DNA of 64,000 nt, taken from Sphingobacterium sp. ML3W (GTDB lineage Bacteria; Bacteroidota; Bacteroidia; Sphingobacteriales; Sphingobacteriaceae). The notes under the pieces are model-generated. The model ran no database searches, had not been told where the DNA came from, and saw only the letters and a program-made list of their open reading frames with translations. The position numbers and the translations under genes were made by a program. Of the stretch, positions 1,698 through 29,008 are shown one piece after another (the first letter of the stretch is position 1; every line of letters begins with the position of its first letter). Where the stretch lies: the NCBI RefSeq assembly GCF_029542085.1, contig NZ_CP107036.1:1736001-1800000 (forward strand), read 5' to 3'.

Positions 1698-2348
1698 TTA
1701 CTTTCCAGTCAAAGCCGATATAAATCCAGCACGGAATGATGGATCTTTTTCGGAAAATTCAATCGAGTGTTTATAGGTATCCACATTAAAAAACAATTCC
1801 GCAGGTTCCGCCTTTTTATTCTCTAAAAACAGTTTGAAACTATAGGCAGTTTTCTTTGATAGATCTACATTCACTTTATTGGATGAAAATACATTTGGCA
1901 GAACAACCTCTTTCGTAAACCCATCAGTACTTGGCATTTGAAATAATTCACCTAAAGCTTTAACTAAGTTGTCAGATTGCGTTCCTAGGGTAGTAATTTT
2001 AATTTTTCCTTTCGTAAAGCCTACATCATCACTTGGCTGACCATCGATAATACCTGCTGGGATAAAATCAACGACTTCAATTTTAGCACCTACTGTATCC
2101 TTATTGTAAATTGATTTCGTTGTATAAATGCGACTTGAATCGGTTTTAACTTCGTCGGTAATACGCAGAAAAAAGTTCTTTTTTTCAGGTCCTGGCGTAC
2201 CATTCGTCAGTTGTTCGATGCGTACCCGCTCAATGGTATTCGCTGTCGCAGTATCACTTCCATCAGTTTTCTTCTGATTAGAATTTCCACAAGCAGCCAT
2301 CATCATCGTAGCTGTTGTAAGAAGGGCTATAGATTGAATTTTGTACAT
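1698..2348 (-). CDS. Putative lipoprotein, unknown function
   Basis: About 216 residues. The start at 2348 gives MYKIQSIALLTTATMMMAAC, a signal peptide ending in a lipobox with the acylated Cys at about residue 20; the longer frame from 2375 would put nine extra polar residues before it. A low-complexity Ser/Thr/Asn/Lys linker follows, then a beta-rich globular region with no motif I recognise. The protein should sit in the periplasm or outer membrane. It is monocistronic, with a strong terminator downstream. The family is unknown to me. Confidence 0.7.
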   Translation of the reverse strand: MYKIQSIALLTTATMMMAACGNSNQKKTDGSDTATANTIERVRIEQLTNGTPGPEKKNFFLRITDEVKTDSSRIYTTKSIYNKDTVGAKIEVVDFIPAGIIDGQPSDDVGFTKGKIKITTLGTQSDNLVKALGELFQMPSTDGFTKEVVLPNVFSSNKVNVDLSKKTAYSFKLFLENKKAEPAELFFNVDTYKHSIEFSEKDPSFRAGFISALTGK

Positions 2349-2442
2349 GGTGAATTGTTTATTATCAGTAATCATTGAAATATTGTTCCTATAATATTAC
2401 TACTATTACTGATAACAAACAACTATTCGCAATGTTTTTATT

Positions 2443-5364
2443 TTATTTCAATAAAGCGTCGTATAAAATTTCAACGGGGTGAAAAGATTTTCTTCCGGTA
2501 CCATCTTTGATCTGATGACGGCACGAAGTACCCGCAGCAGCAATTAGAGTCGCCGTATCTGTGCTACGTACAGCTGGCAATAAAACCAGTTCGGCTACTT
2601 TCATTGAGACATCATAGTGTTCGGCTTCGTAACCAAACGAACCTGCCATGCCACAGCAGCCCGACGGAATCACTTCAACGGAATAATTGGACGGGAACGC
2701 TAAGACTTGCTGGGTAATGCCTACCAGATGAAAGGCTTTCTGATAGCAATGTCCATGCAGCTTGATCTTCTTTTCCACAGCTGTAAACTGCTCCTGATGA
2801 ATACGGCCCGCCTCGATTTCCGCCAATAGAAATTCGTCAATCATAAGTGCATTTTTAGCCACCAACTGTGCATCAGTACGAAGATTTTCATCAACCAGAC
2901 TTAAATATTCATCTCTAAATGTAATGATGCCAGATGGTTCAATACCCAACAACGGTGTTTCGTCGGTAATCAGACCTTTTAGGAAATTAATGTTTTGATT
3001 GGCAATCTTTTTTGCTTCTTTGACAAATCCTTTGGAGAGATATGTCCGTCCGCTTTGTACATGTTTTGGAATAATCACTTCATAGCCCAATGCCGTTAGT
3101 AGCTTGTAAGTTGTAATACCAATCTCAGCATCGTTATATTCTGTAAACTCGTCGGAGAATAGATAGACCCTGCGTTTAGTTTGCGGTACTATCGTTTGCT
3201 TCCTGGCCCATTGGCTCAACGTCGTTCCATTCACCGTAGGAAGAGAGCGTTTTGGTGCAAAGCCTACAGTTTTCTTTACCAAACCGGATAAAAAGTCATT
3301 CTTCACAACAAAATTATAGATTGGGGCAACGAGTGATCCCAGTTTCTGGGAATCAGTAAAATTCGCGATCAATTTGGTCCTAAAGCCGGCCCCATGTTCA
3401 TCGTAATAATGCTGTAAAAACTCTGCTTTCATCTTGGCAACATCCACACTCGACGGACATTCCGTTTTACAGCCTTTGCAACTTAAACACAGATCCATCA
3501 CTTCCTTGATTTCCTCATGGTCAAAGCGATTTTTTTTCGTGGAGTTGGTTAAAAATTGACGCAACATATTCGCTCGTGCACGCGTTGTATCCTTCTCATC
3601 CCGTGTCGCCATAAAAGATGGACACATCGTCCCACCGGTAATTTCTGTTTTCCGGCAATCACCCGAGCCCGAACATTTTTCAGCCAAACGGAGAATGGAT
3701 TCATCTTTGGAAAAATCAAAATAAGTTTTTATATCCGTCCTATTTTTGTCATTGTCATAACGCAAATGGGCATCCATTGGTGGAGTGTTGACAATCTTAT
3801 TTGCATTAAATACTCCTATTGGGTCGAAGATTACCTTTACTTCCTCCAGAAGTTTATAAACCTTTTCTCCGAGTACTTTACCAATAAATTCTCCCCTCAA
3901 ACGCCCGTCGCCATGCTCTCCACTCAACGATCCATTATACTTTAACACAAGGTCACTTGTTTTTTCCAATATGGAGCGGAAAGTGCGCTTACCTTCTTCT
4001 GTTTTCAGATTGACAAAAGGCTCGATATGTAGTTCACCCGCTCCAGCATGTGCATAGTAAGATGCATGCACCCCTTCTTCAACCAAAAGTTTCTGGATGT
4101 CACTGACATAGGCCGGAAGATCCTCTGGAGAAACCGCACAGTCTTCGATTAAATTGACCGGTTGGCTGTCCCCAGGAAGATTACGGATAAGCCCTAATCC
4201 AGCTTTTCGGACATCCCAGACAAGATTAGTCTGCTCGACTCCAATAATATAAGGATAGGCATATCCTAACCCTTTCTCAATCAGTTCTGCCTTTAAAGCC
4301 ATCGCCTTGGCCTCGGTCTCCGCAGCAGTATGACCTCTAAATTCTACGATCAACAGTGCCTGAGGATCACCCTCAATAAAAAAGCGATTGTATTTATAAG
4401 TCGGATGCCCGACCGTAAAATCCATGATATATTTATCGACCAGCTCAGATGCCTCAGGCTGATGATTCAACGCGATGACATTTCCATGCATACATTCAAC
4501 CATATCAGCAAAATGAACACATAATAGTCCAAGTTCCTGCGGTGGTAAATCCATCAAGTGAAGCTTTGCCTCCGTTACAATCGCCAAAGTTCCCTCCGAA
4601 CCCGCCAAAAGGTTACACATATTAAAGGGTTGCGTACGGTCACTCAAAATATCTAAGGCATATCCAGTATTTCGTCGGGTAATCGAACGCTTGGGGTAGC
4701 CTGTTTCAATCGCCGCCAAATTTTGAGGATCTGTCAACAAATCATTCATGTGACGGTAGATATCCCCTTCACGATCTGCCTGTAAAAGTTTTTTAAAATA
4801 ACTTGCCTCATCCAGCGAAGCAAAGCTCACCTCTGATTTATCATCTAAAAGTACATTTGCTGCAATTAGATTATGACGGGTATCGCCCCAGACAATGGAA
4901 TGGAGACCCGAGGAATTATTACCAATCATACCACCAACCATAGCCCGACTTGCCGTGGATGTCTCCGGACCAAACATGAGCCCAAAAGGCTTCAGGTAAC
5001 TATTCAGATCATCACGAATCACGCCGGGTTGTACCCGCACCCATTTCTCCTCCACATTCAATTCCAGGATGCGGTTAAAATGACGGGATATATCCATAAT
5101 GATACCATTTCCGACAACCTGTCCTGCCAACGATGTTCCAGCGGTACGGGGAATTAAGGTTGTTTGGTTTGCTCGGGCAAAATCAATCAAATTCTTTATA
5201 TCGTTTATATCAGATGGAATGGCCACCGCCAACGGTTTTTCCTGGTACACCGAAGCATCTGTTGAGTAGGCAAGTAACATGGTTTGATGCGATGCCTCAT
5301 CTGAATAATACAACTCCCCTTTAAGTTGAGTTGCCAATACGGCTAACTGATTCTGATCTTTCAC
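2443..5364 (-). CDS. FAD-binding and Fe-S dehydrogenase (D-2-hydroxyacid type)
   Basis: A 973-residue fusion of a GlcD-like flavoprotein and a GlpC-like iron-sulfur subunit. The N-terminal FAD-binding PCMH domain contains the TSLAGQVVGNG and GGMIGNNSSG stretches (about residues 75-160). An FAD-oxidase C-terminal domain follows, with a conserved YYAHAGAGELHIEP and SGEHGDGRLRGEF region. Two cysteine clusters come next, CSGSGDC near 563 and CLSCKGCKTECP near 625. The C-terminal cysteine-rich CCG domain shows PSGCCGMAGSFGYE near 905. This architecture fits large membrane-associated oxidases of D-lactate, D-2-hydroxyglutarate or related acids (E. coli YdiJ is similar in layout). The substrate cannot be read from sequence. 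It is divergent from the FUSC-like gene. Confidence 0.88.
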   Translation of the reverse strand: MKDQNQLAVLATQLKGELYYSDEASHQTMLLAYSTDASVYQEKPLAVAIPSDINDIKNLIDFARANQTTLIPRTAGTSLAGQVVGNGIIMDISRHFNRILELNVEEKWVRVQPGVIRDDLNSYLKPFGLMFGPETSTASRAMVGGMIGNNSSGLHSIVWGDTRHNLIAANVLLDDKSEVSFASLDEASYFKKLLQADREGDIYRHMNDLLTDPQNLAAIETGYPKRSITRRNTGYALDILSDRTQPFNMCNLLAGSEGTLAIVTEAKLHLMDLPPQELGLLCVHFADMVECMHGNVIALNHQPEASELVDKYIMDFTVGHPTYKYNRFFIEGDPQALLIVEFRGHTAAETEAKAMALKAELIEKGLGYAYPYIIGVEQTNLVWDVRKAGLGLIRNLPGDSQPVNLIEDCAVSPEDLPAYVSDIQKLLVEEGVHASYYAHAGAGELHIEPFVNLKTEEGKRTFRSILEKTSDLVLKYNGSLSGEHGDGRLRGEFIGKVLGEKVYKLLEEVKVIFDPIGVFNANKIVNTPPMDAHLRYDNDKNRTDIKTYFDFSKDESILRLAEKCSGSGDCRKTEITGGTMCPSFMATRDEKDTTRARANMLRQFLTNSTKKNRFDHEEIKEVMDLCLSCKGCKTECPSSVDVAKMKAEFLQHYYDEHGAGFRTKLIANFTDSQKLGSLVAPIYNFVVKNDFLSGLVKKTVGFAPKRSLPTVNGTTLSQWARKQTIVPQTKRRVYLFSDEFTEYNDAEIGITTYKLLTALGYEVIIPKHVQSGRTYLSKGFVKEAKKIANQNINFLKGLITDETPLLGIEPSGIITFRDEYLSLVDENLRTDAQLVAKNALMIDEFLLAEIEAGRIHQEQFTAVEKKIKLHGHCYQKAFHLVGITQQVLAFPSNYSVEVIPSGCCGMAGSFGYEAEHYDVSMKVAELVLLPAVRSTDTATLIAAAGTSCRHQIKDGTGRKSFHPVEILYDALLK

Positions 5365-5576
5365 TGAATTTGCTTTTTTATATAGAAAACAAATTTAGTC
5401 AAATTTCTCCTTTGGAAAAAGGAAGAATTGCAAGAAATACACAATTTCTTTTAACAAAACGCATAAAAACGCAATCACAAAATGCAACAAACCGGAATTT
5501 TATTTCGCATCTTCATGAATTGCTTGTATTTTTGCAGCAGCAACACGGTTTAATGAATTAACATCCGCTCTGTTAT

Positions 5577-6080
5577 ATGCGTAATCTTATCCTTCGATAC
5601 ACATTACATTCAGATTTTATTATATATTCGATACGAGTGCTAGTAGGATTTTTACTAGGCTACATTCTATTTGTGTCCTTTCCGGAATACTCTGTTTCCT
5701 GGACACTTATTTCAATTATCCTAGTGATATCCCCGCAGGAAAATGAGTCCAAAAAAATTGCCATTGACCGTGCCAAATCCAATTTCATTGGCTCTGCCAT
5801 CGGTCTCAGTTTATACTTCGTACCGATTCCACAGCTATATGCAATGATTATCGGGATGCTTGCCTCCCTCATCATCTGCAAGGCACTGAATATTATGGCT
5901 GTGGCCCGCACATCTATGGTGGCTTTAATTATTGTCTACCTACATGAGCAGGAAAGTCGTTCATATTTTGCAGCCCTCGACCGTTTCGGTTGTGTTTGCG
6001 TGGGATGTTTGATCGGCTTAGGTGTCATCCTATCCACCCGGAATATTATTATTAAATTGAGAAATCGGTATAATTGTTGA
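5577..6080 (+). CDS. FUSC-like inner-membrane protein
   Basis: A 167-residue, strongly hydrophobic protein with about four to five predicted membrane segments. It resembles the short membrane half of FUSC/aromatic-acid exporter proteins: a RVLVGFLLGYILFVSFPE start, a W-T-L-I-S-I-I-L-V-I-S-P block, then R(A)KSNFIGSAIGL. In the family, such segments form the membrane part of efflux or fusaric-acid-type transporters. Only the membrane module is present, so it may work as an oligomer or be a reduced relative. A TATTTTTG element at 5527-5534 fits a Bacteroidota -7 box. The gene is monocistronic. Confidence 0.7.
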   Translation: MRNLILRYTLHSDFIIYSIRVLVGFLLGYILFVSFPEYSVSWTLISIILVISPQENESKKIAIDRAKSNFIGSAIGLSLYFVPIPQLYAMIIGMLASLIICKALNIMAVARTSMVALIIVYLHEQESRSYFAALDRFGCVCVGCLIGLGVILSTRNIIIKLRNRYNC

Positions 6081-6223
6081 CCATCACAAACTGTAGACCA
6101 CCTGCAACTCCTTTTCAACCAACAAATTAAAGCAAACAAAGAAAATCAGCAGAAAGGCAAATCGAATAAAATTCACAACAACAACTATTCTTTCAGAATA
6201 ATATTCATAATTAATACTAATAT

Positions 6224-6254
6224 TTTGAATATTCTACTTTTTTCTTTACCTTTG
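6224..6254 (+). promoter_or_regulatory. Bacteroidota-type promoter of the Lrp gene
   Basis: TTTG at 6224-6227 and TACCTTTG at 6247-6254 are separated by exactly 19 nt, matching the TTTG-N19-TAnnTTTG consensus. The -7 box ends only 8 nt before the ATG at 6263, which leaves room for almost no untranslated leader. Confidence 0.75.
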
Positions 6255-6262
6255 CAGTCGAA

Positions 6263-6736
6263 ATGACAAAAGTAGAATATAATTTAGATCAGGTAGATTA
6301 CAAAATTCTTCGTTTAATGCAGGATAACGGGCGTATCAACAATGCTGATATCGCTAGAGAATTAGGTATGGCTCCTTCAGCAATACTGGAGCGGGTTAAG
6401 AAGCTTGAACAGAAAGACGTGATCCTAAAATACAGCGCCAAGATCAATCCAGCGGCTGTTGATCAGAAACTTTTATCATTTATTTTCATCAAATCCAATG
6501 ATATCATTGGCGAACAACGTGTAGGTCTCGCCCTCGCGGAAATCCCGGAGGTACAAGAAGTACACGACATTGCTGGAGATGACGGTTATCTTATCAAAGT
6601 AAGAACGGCAGATTCAACAGGTTTGGTTGATTTAATGCGCAATACACTGGGTAAAGTAGAAGGAATAATTTCTACTCGTACCACAATTGTACTTCAAACG
6701 GTAAAAGAAGATCAACAGGTTGTTATACCTGAATAA
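6263..6736 (+). CDS. Lrp/AsnC family transcriptional regulator
   Basis: 157 residues. The N-terminal winged helix (LDQVDYKILRLMQDNGRINNADIARELGMAPSAILERVKKL, residues 8-48, described in pieces) is typical of AsnC/Lrp. A C-terminal RAM/ligand-binding domain follows, with the GDDGYLIKV core around residues 108-116. Such proteins bind amino acids or related metabolites and control transport genes. The adjoining downstream EamA exporter, 19 nt away and co-directional, is the likely target and operon partner. The promoter lies immediately upstream and the mRNA may be nearly leaderless. Confidence 0.92.
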   Translation: MTKVEYNLDQVDYKILRLMQDNGRINNADIARELGMAPSAILERVKKLEQKDVILKYSAKINPAAVDQKLLSFIFIKSNDIIGEQRVGLALAEIPEVQEVHDIAGDDGYLIKVRTADSTGLVDLMRNTLGKVEGIISTRTTIVLQTVKEDQQVVIPE

Positions 6737-25385: not shown

Positions 25386-26807
25386 CTAATCTTCGCGGCT
25401 ACCATCATCAGCCATACGGACAATTTTTGGTGAGAACTTTGCGACGACGTCCACCAACTCCTCTTGCGAGGCCATGACGGTATGGATGTCTTTGTAGGCC
25501 ATGGGTGCTTCATCCATCCCGGCTCCCAAAAGTGTAATCCCCCGATCAGCAAGCATATCTTTCAACTCAGCAGCGGAAAGCGTCTTGATTGCTTGTGTAC
25601 GGCTCATCAATCGTCCTGCACCATGAGATGCCGATTGGATAGCAGCCATCTCCCCTTTTCCGCGCACCAGAAATCCAGGAGTAGCCATGGAACCCGGGAT
25701 AATTCCCATTACGCCTTTTGCCGCAGGAGTAGCTCCTTTTCGGTGTACCACAACCTCCCGGTCATTCCAGGTCTCTTTCCATGCAAAATTATGATGGTTT
25801 TCAATTTTGGCTAGTAACTCCGCCCCCAAAGCATCTTTGATCTTGTCATGAATAACTTCATGGCAGGCCGAAGCATAATCACCAGCCAGATTCATTGCCA
25901 ACCAATATTCTTGTCCTTCCATTGTATTTAAATCCAGATAAGCCAGATTTTGAGCTTGATAGGGTAACTTACATAAAGTCTTCGCCAATTTGGTGTAATG
26001 AGCAGCCACAGTTGCGCCTAGACCCCGGGATCCCGAATGTGTCAACAAACCCAGGTAAAGTCCTTTCTCAATGTTCAGCACCTCGTCCTTTTCAACAAAC
26101 TCCACAATCCCAAATTCCACAAAGTGATTCCCTCCACCGGAAGAACCTAACTGTGTCCATGCCTTATCTTTTAAGGATTTAAGCAGATCATTTTCTGCAA
26201 ACAATTTATTGTCCAGGACGGCATGATCCACACGTTCATGCTTCAGATAGCCATTTCCGGCACCAAATCGCGTATGTTTCAGAATAGTCTCTTTTAATGT
26301 CGCCGCATCTGTATCCAATAAGGATGCTGGCAGATCAAAGATGGACAAAGCCATTCGGCAACCAATATCAACGCCAACTCCGTAAGGAATTACAGCATTA
26401 TCAGTGGCCAATACACCGCCGATCGGCAGTCCGTACCCTTGATGGGCATCGGGCATCAAAGCGCCAGCAACAGTAACCGGCAGCTTCATGGCTACTTTCA
26501 TCTGTTCTTTAGCTCCTGCTTCTATTCCGGACGCGCCATAAATCGTATACTCCACAGGATCTTCATTCAAAGCAATTAATGTGGCATCAACAACATCCTG
26601 TCCTAATATGGCCTCTGCCAACACACTGAAAATAGTATCTTCAGTATACGCTGTTGGATTTTCCAGCACAGATTTAAATTTGGCTAACATTTCTGCTCGC
26701 GTAAAACCATGTCGCTTGCTGTTGATTTTCAACGCAGCACCCAATGTATGGTTCTCTTTATATCCTAATGCAATCAGATCATTGCCATTAATTCTTTTAT
26801 TTTCCAT
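25386..26807 (-). CDS. rtcB: RtcB-family RNA ligase
   Basis: About 473 residues. RtcB joins RNA ends with 2',3'-cyclic phosphate or 3'-phosphate to 5'-OH ends through a GMP-linked histidine. Family motifs in order: MPDAHQGYGLPIGGV, YGVGVDIGCRM (metal Cys), SSGGGNHFVEF, THSGSRGLG, VHRKGATPA, IPGSMATPGFLVRG, and SASHGAGRLMSR with the guanylylated His. All appear intact. Starts at 26813 or 26807 are both possible; the longer frame from 26846 runs through a hairpin and is rejected. It lies downstream of the slipin gene in the same direction, and the pair is preceded by tRNA-like RNA elements. No RtcA, RtcR or archease gene is adjacent. Confidence 0.93.
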   Translation of the reverse strand: MENKRINGNDLIALGYKENHTLGAALKINSKRHGFTRAEMLAKFKSVLENPTAYTEDTIFSVLAEAILGQDVVDATLIALNEDPVEYTIYGASGIEAGAKEQMKVAMKLPVTVAGALMPDAHQGYGLPIGGVLATDNAVIPYGVGVDIGCRMALSIFDLPASLLDTDAATLKETILKHTRFGAGNGYLKHERVDHAVLDNKLFAENDLLKSLKDKAWTQLGSSGGGNHFVEFGIVEFVEKDEVLNIEKGLYLGLLTHSGSRGLGATVAAHYTKLAKTLCKLPYQAQNLAYLDLNTMEGQEYWLAMNLAGDYASACHEVIHDKIKDALGAELLAKIENHHNFAWKETWNDREVVVHRKGATPAAKGVMGIIPGSMATPGFLVRGKGEMAAIQSASHGAGRLMSRTQAIKTLSAAELKDMLADRGITLLGAGMDEAPMAYKDIHTVMASQEELVDVVAKFSPKIVRMADDGSRED

Positions 26808-26827: not shown

Positions 26828-26881
26828 GGGATCTTTCCAATCCCAAGCAGGTAGCAATACCTCTTTACAATTGCTACCCGC
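26828..26881 (-). other. Two strong hairpins between slipin and rtcB
   Basis: On the minus strand, GCGGGTAGCAAT pairs with ATTGCTACCTGC (26881-26870 with 26858-26847, one G-U) around an 11-nt loop. Next, GGGAT pairs with ATCCC (26844-26828) around a 7-nt loop. No T-run follows, so these are not ordinary terminators. They may be a processing site, a translation control element for rtcB or a further small RNA module. Confidence 0.65.
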
Positions 26882-26920
26882 ACCTCTTTTATCCTCAATT
26901 TTATTAACTTACCTTTGTTG

Positions 26921-28018: not shown

Positions 28019-28275
28019 ATTTATTGTTTATACTATTTTCCAATGACAAAATTTGCTATGAGCTGCCCATCAATGCCGAGCGGGATCAAAAAGAGCCCAT
28101 ACGGAGCTTTACCGTAGAAGCGTTCGAAATGGTCGCCTTAGCGATCCACGACAACGCTCATCCTGTATCGTCTCTGTATGAGATGTTCCCGATCACGGGC
28201 TCCACACCGACTGCCATGAAGAAAAACGAAGTTCTCCTCAGTGCCGGACAGACTATAGCAAGCTTTATTTAAATA
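28019..28275 (-). other. Untranslated leader or degenerate region before slipin
   Basis: This 257-bp stretch is visibly richer in G and C than its surroundings. On the minus strand it holds several small hairpins: CCCG-TGAT-CGGG; TACGG-N7-CCGTA; GGATCGC pairing with GCGACC. It also holds a distant GAGCCC (28202-28197) and GGGCTC (28098-28093) pair, the latter followed by TTTTT. Short frames on both strands lack a clear start, ribosome site or recognised family. I read it as the continuation of a structured non-coding leader, with a decayed gene as the alternative. Confidence 0.45.
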
Positions 28276-28323
28276 ACCTTTTTAAAGAAGGTATAACTTT
28301 CAAAACCAGAACCTAAATTCTGT

Positions 28324-28375
28324 GCAATACCCTTATGCTATTCCATCCGAAAATGGAAGTGGGATTCGAACCCAC
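28324..28375 (-). repeat. tRNA-like elbow module 3
   Basis: T-arm at 28359-28375 (GTGGG, TTCGAAT loop, CCCAC), acceptor hairpin TTCCAT(T)-TTCG-(G)ATGGAA at 28341-28358, TA, and D-arm GCA...TGC with AAGGGTA-like loop at 28324-28338. A 5-bp hairpin CAGAA-TTTAGG-TTCTG follows at 28307-28322. Confidence 0.78.
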
Positions 28376-28389
28376 ACGATTGAGTTGTT

Positions 28390-28442
28390 GTTCTAACCAA
28401 GCTGAACTATCCTGATTGCTCAGGAGCAGGAGTCGAACCTGC
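28390..28442 (-). repeat. tRNA-like elbow module 2
   Basis: T-arm at 28426-28442 (GCAGG, TTCGACT loop, CCTGC), acceptor hairpin TCCTGA-GCAA-TCAGGA at 28410-28425, TA, and D-arm GTTC, AGCTTGGTTA loop, GAAC at 28390-28407. No clear anticodon-like stem follows before the next T-arm. Confidence 0.8.
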
Positions 28443-28463
28443 GACCTACAACGGAACTGCCGT

Positions 28464-28509
28464 GCTCTACCCTTGAGCTACCTCTTTCGAGGGAAGGATT
28501 CGAACCTTC
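28464..28509 (-). repeat. tRNA-like elbow module 1
   Basis: T-arm at 28493-28509 (GAAGG, TTCGAAT loop, CCTTC), acceptor hairpin CCTC-GAAA-GAGG at 28481-28492, TA, and D-arm GCTC-AAGGGTA-GAGC at 28464-28478. The anticodon-like hairpin ACGG-CAGTT-CCGT follows at 28451-28463. Confidence 0.8.
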
Positions 28510-28688
28510 AACCCTGGTGGCAACATTCTCTCATGCTCTTCTTCTTATCAGTATATTGAGTCCCATCGGGAACAATACTATCCTGCTATACAGAAACAGG
28601 AGACTAGGATGCAAATCAAAGAATGAGAGTTTTTTTATACTTCTCCTAAAAAGAAGTACATATCTTAAAAGCATTTTGCTAGTTTCAT

Positions 28689-28720
28689 CAAAGAACGTTT
28701 ATCATTGCTGACATTACAAA
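28689..28720 (-). promoter_or_regulatory. Possible promoter of the tRNA-like RNA
   Basis: On the minus strand, TTTG (28720-28717) and GTTCTTTG (28696-28689) are 20 nt apart, close to the TTTG-N19-TAnnTTTG consensus but with GT in place of TA. No sigma-54 (GG-N10-GC) promoter was found. Confidence 0.35.
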
Positions 28721-29008
28721 GATCGCTCTGTTAACGTGCAGACCATTTGCGCAATAAAATAAAACACAAATAAAATAACAAAAACTTATACAACACACTG
28801 ATAATGACCTATAAAAATTTAAAAACAAACATTAGCATTAAAAATTAGAGCCCAAATTGCGCATTTATATTGCGTAGATTAACAGTGACTAGACGAGAGA
28901 TTTGCCTAGATGATCATTAGATAACAATAAATATCACTGATTTCCATGAGAAAGCTTTCTGATATAAGTGCTATTTTTACACCGTTATAATTAATTGGAA
29001 TTTACTAA
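28721..29008. other. AT-rich divergent intergenic DNA
   Basis: This lies between the RNA/slipin/rtcB unit and the following lipoprotein gene. It is very AT-rich, without an open frame I can support; it should hold the promoter of the plus-strand gene. Nothing else is seen. Confidence 0.5.

Follow-up and report, generated by a model that had tools for sequence, protein, structure and literature searches.

Ro60 and Y RNA have a long history of joint study, and TEP1, a subunit of the eukaryotic vault, shares the TROVE domain with Ro60. SPFH/Band-7 modules reportedly act in RNA repair as well, together with a cognate novel tRNA-like molecule, as proposed by Burroughs and Aravind in 2016. The RNA described here is encoded beside the Band-7 gene of an RNA-repair system and is probably a case of the same association of Band-7 gene and RNA; going by this proposal, the association as such is therefore probably already known. 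The tRNA-like module of the bacterial Y RNA YrlA reportedly binds PNPase and serves the modifying enzymes DusA and TruB as a substrate, while its basal stem holds Ro60 (PMC8394870). In Pseudomonas aeruginosa the SPFH gene paFlo8 lies inside the rtc locus and is, like the slipin gene described below, an SPFH gene among RNA-repair genes, with no RNA being mentioned in the accessible part of the report (PMC13086221). In Anabaena, TrcR represses slipin, rtcB and an array of 26 tRNA genes, and this repression is relieved in translation stress; these parts also occur among the loci described here but in Anabaena they lie at separate loci, and a tRNA-like leader RNA is not mentioned in the accessible part of that paper (PMC10272220).

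The accessible texts of the open-access literature on slipin, SPFH or Band-7 in connection with RtcB, RNA repair, RlaP or tRNA arrays gave no description of the RNA chain that we found in a window of 64,000 nucleotides from Sphingobacterium sp. ML3W (contig NZ_CP107036.1, positions 1,736,001 to 1,800,000). Its permuted units, their flanking domains, the exchange with Ro60, the operons with tRNA arrays and a vault-like slipin model look new, although they may partly be contained in the work of Burroughs and Aravind.

Permuted tRNA elbows and their flanking domains

The minus strand from 28720 to 28040 holds a promoter region and a structured RNA some 600 nt long, in which a 5′ domain is followed by a chain of three elbow units (28324-28509), a hairpin resembling an anticodon arm and finally the 3′ domain. 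It continues with the genes for slipin and RtcB (Table 1). An earlier note, made from the sequence alone, had described three units that each consist of a T-arm, a sealed acceptor hairpin, UA and a D-arm, and all three are present on this strand. They score highly with R1, a covariance model of the elbow unit, as is to be expected because near-identical relatives are among the sequences from which R1 was built. The extent given in the note, 28276..28602, does contain the units but the RNA runs well beyond it on both sides. The acceptor hairpins were confirmed as well, with the correction that the third one has 7 bp and that its UUCG loop is closed by U.G and thus differs from the canonical C(UUCG)G loop. 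In an unguided minimum-energy fold of 28276-28720 all three T-arms appear with their acceptor hairpins and the third D-arm is absent; none of 100 shuffles was as stable (z −2.67). The promoter region is the likely start of the RNA and putatively of the −7 type of Bacteroidota.

Table 1: Features of the slipin-rtcB locus and its upstream RNA (positions in the window).
Feature	Position	Strand	Basis
Putative operator, TGCGCA-type repeat, imperfect in the window	28735..28754	-	pattern shared with relatives; upstream of promoter
Putative Bacteroidota -7 promoter region (CGATCTTTGTAATGTCAGC), likely RNA start	28707..28725	-	conserved position relative to operator pattern
5′ domain: two hairpins (loop UUUCUGUAUA; stem GUAUUG/CAAUAU) enclosed by the closing helix CTCTCAT/ATGAGAG	28528..28629	-	minimum-energy fold and alignment
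Elbow unit 1	28464..28509	-	R1 56.7 bits; minimum-energy fold
Unit 1: T-arm; acceptor hairpin CCTC-GAAA-GAGG, then UA; D-arm	28493-28509; 28481-28492; 28464-28478	-	
Elbow unit 2	28390..28442	-	R1 64.9 bits; RF02553 YrlA local match 37.9 bits
Unit 2: T-arm; acceptor hairpin TCCTGA-GCAA-TCAGGA, then UA; D-arm	28426-28442; 28410-28425; 28390-28407	-	
Elbow unit 3	28324..28375	-	R1 56.1 bits; T-arm and hairpin in minimum-energy fold
Unit 3: T-arm; acceptor hairpin TTCCATT-TTCG-GATGGAA, then UA; D-arm	28359-28375; 28341-28358; 28324-28338	-	
Anticodon-like hairpin CAGAA-TTTAGG-TTCTG, after last D-arm	28307..28322	-	read in sequence; kept in relatives
3′ domain, about 220 nt, long closing helix (AAAGCTTGCTAT / ATAGCAAATTTT), ends about 30 nt before slipin	28048..28266	-	fold and consensus pairs
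slipin (SPFH/Band_7), 365 aa	26921..28018	-	PF01145 7.1e-25
rtcB RNA ligase	25386..26807	-	PF01139 3e-85

Using slipin as bait in named genomes we compiled 80 Bacteroidota loci, the best 80 of at least 557. From their T-arm hits, 188 in number, 80 distinct units were aligned, showing two-sided changes in 13 of 15 pairs, which include the six pairs of the acceptor and the four of the D-stem without exception. The acceptor hairpins proposed in the note are thus supported by compensatory changes at every acceptor pair, while the overall share of 97.5% paired cells is flattered, as the units had been chosen by pairing score. A fairer check is the number of hairpins compared with shuffles: of the 164 T-arms located within 605 nt of the slipin start in the 80 loci, 149 are directly followed by a hairpin with a net count of at least 4 pairs, compared to 22.7% for base-shuffled flanks and to 5 of 24 T-arms further upstream, most of which belong to tRNA genes. 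Within the pairing-selected units, acceptor pairing in the unit's own hairpin amounts to 5.52 pairs against 2.82 ± 0.17 after shuffling between loci, a value reached by none of 2000 shuffles, whereas linear acceptor pairing as in a tRNA gives 3.28 against 3.22 ± 0.05 (313 of 2000 shuffles as high) and contiguous linear pairs show a slight excess with 2.93 against 2.69 ± 0.10 (27 of 2000). It is the permuted topology that covaries strongly. The statement that linear tRNA pairing fails in each unit therefore holds insofar as such pairing is barely or not at all above shuffles, but 2-3 contiguous linear pairs do exist in the units of the window, and short linear alternatives in relatives reach up to 5.

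ARAGORN detected no tRNA in the window and the Rfam tRNA model RF00005 gave at most 24.5 bits on the chain (cut-off 29), which, together with linear pairing not clearly above shuffles, rules out tRNA genes or simple pseudogenes in the window, as had been held before; among 14 relatives scanned the linear reading passes the cut-off of 29 in three (L065, L072 and L116, 31.9-38.4 bits). No Rfam family was found in the window at its own cut-off, and the relaxed matches other than that to the YrlA module were at chance level. A functionless relic, fused from a tandem tRNA array, would fit the resemblance of the units to tRNA halves, the true tRNA arrays flanking some loci and R1 matches of about 90 nt and about 45 bits that look like neighbouring tRNA genes, but it is very improbable given the compensatory change in every acceptor pair and the presence of units in 77 of the 80 loci.

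The units share with circularly permuted tRNA genes that the 3′ half is located before the 5′ half, and in 59 of 77 loci, compared to 31% of shuffles, the last D-arm is succeeded by a hairpin of 4-5 bp that resembles an anticodon arm. Both would agree with a precursor from which permuted tRNAs are excised and circularised by the ligase. In contrast to such genes, however, the units are chained and show no sign of tRNA maturation, their acceptor loops, which have 4 nt in the window, are too short to accommodate CCA or processing, and many of the linkers between D-arm and T-arm have no anticodon arm by eye; for units 1 and 2 the linkers, read in the sequence, are without a clear 5-bp anticodon stem. 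We thus give this reading hardly any credence.

The 5′ domain is conserved as far as the Saprospiraceae, as seen from an alignment of 75 loci with 72 distinct rows, from which L047 and L094 had been removed by hand. In its second stem the first pair is G.U in all 72 distinct rows, and the last one is paired in all 72 as GC, CG, AU, GU, UA or UG. The closing helix was read by eye and is also part of the minimum-energy fold; RNAalifold did not recover it from this alignment. For the 3′ domain none of 200 shuffles folded as stably (z −4.31), and 35 long-range consensus pairs were obtained in each of two groups. In 26 rows from Sphingobacterium 828 of 909 cells are paired and 26 pairs have changed on both sides, and in 31 rows of Pedobacter type 979 of 1074 cells are paired with 22 such pairs, compared to 37-48% paired after sliding the partners, the consensus structure being derived from the same rows on which the pairs were counted. 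The covariation term of the alignment is favourable.

Upstream of the promoter region, a pattern of TGCGYA/TACGCA, a gap and TGCGYA followed by a TTTG box was found in 66 of the 80 slipin loci, including one match at −1369 that is likely due to chance, against 51 of 800 shuffled controls; the near-identical relative L039 is not matched. The pattern suggests a regulator that would act on the operator-like repeat; none was found.

The RNA follows slipin and not rtcB

In 79 of the 80 loci slipin is preceded by T-arms in its own orientation, and 77 of the loci have units with a score of at least 16. The remaining three are L114, which was excluded by hand, and L056 and L118, which are without a unit, L056 having a single T-arm at this position. 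By the note's own standard, absence of the units next to slipin and rtcB in relatives or a lack of covariation in the acceptor hairpins would have refuted the proposal; units are present in the 77 Bacteroidota loci and their hairpins covary. In L118 the position just before slipin is taken by a tRNA-Tyr gene (3887-3971) instead of the RNA.

We also searched for R1 and slipin in 93 Sphingobacterium genomes, of which 55 encode slipin, 70 rtcB and five Ro60 (PF05731). In fifty of the 55 slipin-bearing genomes an R1 unit of at least 50 bits precedes slipin in the same orientation at a distance of 306-587 nt. The five genomes without such a strong unit are G004, G007, G012, G079 and G087; a rescan gave weaker R1 matches of 20-45 bits in the latter four and one of 45.8 bits in G004. 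Among the 93 R1 matches of at least 50 bits listed for the genus only six are located away from slipin, five of them beside Ro60 and one in G008, which is also the only one of the 38 slipin-less genomes with a unit of this strength. Similarly, 15 of the 16 genomes with rtcB and without slipin have no R1 match of at least 50 bits, the exception again being G008. Its locus (L130) is a remnant that has lost slipin as well as the 5′ and 3′ domains of the RNA and retains two elbows before rtcB. The reciprocal loss is seen in G087 (the assembly that contains L056), where slipin occurs without an rtcB match and the elbows are gone with both flanking domains being kept, as judged by eye; each of the two losses is represented by one genome. 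In a survey of 151 genomes of the order, 42 had an R1 match at E ≤ 1e-8 and 39 had slipin; 37 of these 39 carry the R1 match, always at most 1.1 kb upstream of slipin and on the same strand, and G004 and G012 have slipin without it.

RtcB is missing from the fetched stretch in eight of the 80 loci (L056, L065, L071, L099, L110, L114, L117 and L118), and in five of them (L065, L071, L099, L110 and L117) the RNA is kept. As the RNA is kept where the fetched stretch has no RtcB and 15 of 16 genomes with rtcB but no slipin lack a strong match, the RNA tracks slipin rather than rtcB, and the emphasis that the earlier note had placed on RtcB was not supported. On the same two observations we rejected an RNA specific for RtcB.

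The start of rtcB was set at the conserved MENKRINGN by comparison with L130, as the mechanical list of open reading frames has it starting at 26846. The gap between slipin and rtcB (26846-26920, minus strand) contains an inverted repeat with GAGGTGC ... AAAGAGGT motifs, which by eye is also present in several Sphingobacterium relatives. The defence models of PADLOC gave no match. A phage origin was rejected because no slipin relative could be confirmed in viral contigs (73 candidate stretches); the phage collection held one partial slipin match in a record of 1.4 kb.

The constant position of the RNA raises the question whether it acts in cis, as the 5′ UTR of a slipin-rtcB mRNA in which binding of free RtcB, slipin or tRNA fragments to the elbows would alter how the 3′ domain folds; its closing helix together with the U-rich end would then serve as a terminator. 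This main rival of the trans-acting RNA discussed below draws on the RNA preceding slipin in the same orientation wherever it occurs (in Sphingobacterium at the distance given above), on the end of the 3′ domain near the start codon and on a T-rich stretch near this end in 68 of 79 loci; T-rich stretches are, however, also present in 42% of shuffles. In L101, L103, L113 and L116 the RNA comes after rtcB in the same orientation, occupying in L101 the gap between rtcB and slipin, which argues for a function in trans rather than in cis. Since the operon also has its own conserved operator-like repeat and a pair of Ro60 and Y RNA takes the same place in relatives, we regard the leader as possible but well short of probable.

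Comparison with Y RNAs and variants of the operon

A tRNA mimicry like that of Y RNAs had been suggested for the units, and unit 2 indeed corresponds to positions 23-86 of the YrlA family RF02553 with 37.9 bits, a score that leads all Rfam matches at relaxed thresholds and is below the gathering score of 69. Two Y RNA clusters beside Ro60 in Sphingobacterium, L131 and L132, reached 39.9 and 36.0 bits with the same model (cut-off 69). As these Ro60-linked RNAs also remain below 69 bits and are missed by Rfam, the cut-off alone does not discriminate between the two kinds of RNA. R1, although derived from units of the chain, also picks up the Ro60-adjacent Y RNA in each of the five Ro60-bearing Sphingobacterium genomes. 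With YrlA and its partner Ro60/Rsr the chain RNA has in common the module of sealed acceptor, T-arm, UA and D-arm as well as the occurrence in RNA-repair operons with rtcB; it differs in having several modules, additional 5′ and 3′ domains, slipin as partner and no basal stem. A sequence pattern for the strands of the basal stem, allowing up to 2 and 1 mismatches, occurs twice in each of two Sphingobacterium Y RNA loci, and in none of the 80 slipin leaders (720 nt upstream of slipin) nor in the window. The lack of a Ro60 gene that had been noticed in the sequence extends to the whole genome, which gave no match to PF05731. A Y RNA proper is thereby ruled out, but the chain RNA likely functions in a similar way.

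The remaining five of the 42 R1-positive genomes in the order survey all have Y RNA loci with the stem motif by eye, in four of them next to a complete TROVE gene and in the fifth next to a fragment of it. G172, G173 and G178 share the arrangement Ro60, Y RNAs, RlaP, RlaP and rtcB, the second RlaP being assigned by Pfam in G173 and by resemblance in G172 and G178, and G223 has Ro60, Y RNAs and RlaP. In the slipin loci L061 and L072 the order is chain RNA, slipin, RlaP, RlaP and rtcB; in total 23 of the 80 slipin loci encode RlaP. This exchange of Ro60 and Y RNA for slipin and chain RNA before the same genes is the strongest hint of function. All five Ro60-bearing Sphingobacterium genomes also have slipin, and a TROVE match is present within the fetched stretch of four of the 80 slipin loci (L071, L086, L111 and L117). 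As both occur in the same genomes, the platforms exist side by side and neither simply substitutes for the other.

The operons also vary in their enzymes. In Taibaiella, L065 (5477-9095) encodes an RNase_T protein, two RlaP and a T4 Rnl1-type ligase, and L071 (5495-9095) an Rnl1-type ligase and RlaP among neighbours resembling those of L065; neither has RtcB in the stretch. L110, also with no RtcB in the stretch, contains 19 tRNA genes (2280-6635), seven before and twelve after slipin, which is a nearly full spare set, and nine tRNA genes precede slipin in L114.

The association is also found in other phyla. A plasmid collection gave 821 records with a slipin match, and in all six loci that we opened from the nine best (Bacillota, Gamma- and Betaproteobacteria) an R1 match of 19-35 bits is located at most 600 nt upstream of the slipin match on the same strand. 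The units of Photobacterium pair as linear tRNAs, and for those of Burkholderia both ARAGORN and the sequence point to linear pairing as well. In Citrobacter and Escherichia coli the gene adjoining slipin is annotated as nucleotidyltransferase. The slipin locus of E. coli is present in 1624 of 5426 complete genomes, in 1621 of them over at least 80% of the query including the leader, which itself has a weaker T-arm match of 19.4 bits.

A proposed tRNA-mimicking arm for a slipin particle

On balance we lean towards a permuted-elbow RNA with a function in trans. It would be the arm by which a slipin ribonucleoprotein mimics tRNA, and this particle would serve as a scaffold that delivers RNA-repair enzymes to broken tRNAs, in the manner proposed for the Ro60-Y RNA particle. 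The RNA would be transcribed from the conserved putative promoter and bound by slipin in the place of Ro60, probably via its 5′ and 3′ domains, and slipin might assemble into a ring or cage, as far as a model of the single chain can indicate. Each elbow would look like a tRNA with its acceptor sealed and its anticodon side open, and by resembling a tRNA opened at the anticodon it could dock the ligase, RlaP or other enzymes that modify or handle tRNAs. The slipin particle could in this way replace the Ro60 particle as a platform, equipped with RtcB or with a T4 Rnl1-type ligase, or else encoded in an operon that carries spare tRNA genes. Of the three functions suggested in the earlier note, tethering or recruitment of the ligase is the best, above sensing of tRNA damage and titration of enzymes.

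The closed acceptor and open anticodon side would also suit a decoy, with elbows that draw anticodon nucleases, exonucleases or modifying enzymes away from tRNAs by competition and so shield the tRNAs during stress. Competitive inhibition of the nuclease is raised as a possibility for YrlA by Hughes et al. (PMC7790460), and in some loci tRNA arrays are present in the same operon. We nevertheless find a decoy unlikely, as it leaves the conserved 5′ and 3′ domains and the tracking of slipin unexplained and as the RNA is expected to be of low copy compared to cellular tRNA.

For the trans-acting slipin ribonucleoprotein a further, more speculative step can be formulated. Slipin has no transmembrane stretch (highest 19-residue hydropathy 1.43), and its structure model (pLDDT 78, pTM 0.55) shows three five-strand beta repeats, the last one within the SPFH region, followed by a long C-terminal helix. 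A soluble SPFH protein with vault-like beta repeats and a 600-nt elbow-chain RNA might thus form a bacterial mini-vault, a cage holding RNA ligases or encoded among spare tRNA genes, as a counterpart of both the Ro60-Y RNA particle and the vault. We put this forward tentatively and think it rather improbable. The eukaryotic vault with its major vault protein and vault RNA differs from slipin, which has three repeats instead of many and 10-13% identity; the N-terminal part of slipin alone matches weakly, its N-terminal domain gave no match at E ≤ 0.001 when searched alone, and no vault RNA was among the 11 relaxed Rfam matches in the window.

In summary, a second and unrelated protein, slipin, occupies the position of Ro60 in repair operons of the same type and comes with its own, larger tRNA-mimic RNA, which belongs to no Rfam family at cut-off in the window and yet occurs across the sampled Bacteroidota loci. 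As the E. coli slipin locus is present in so many of the complete genomes, laboratory work is within reach. The operons that combine slipin and the RNA with spare tRNA genes instead of a ligase suggest that replacing and mending tRNAs are two options of one stress response. An RNA built from tRNA elbows would be the shared logic of such repair platforms, which can be tested by swapping their parts.
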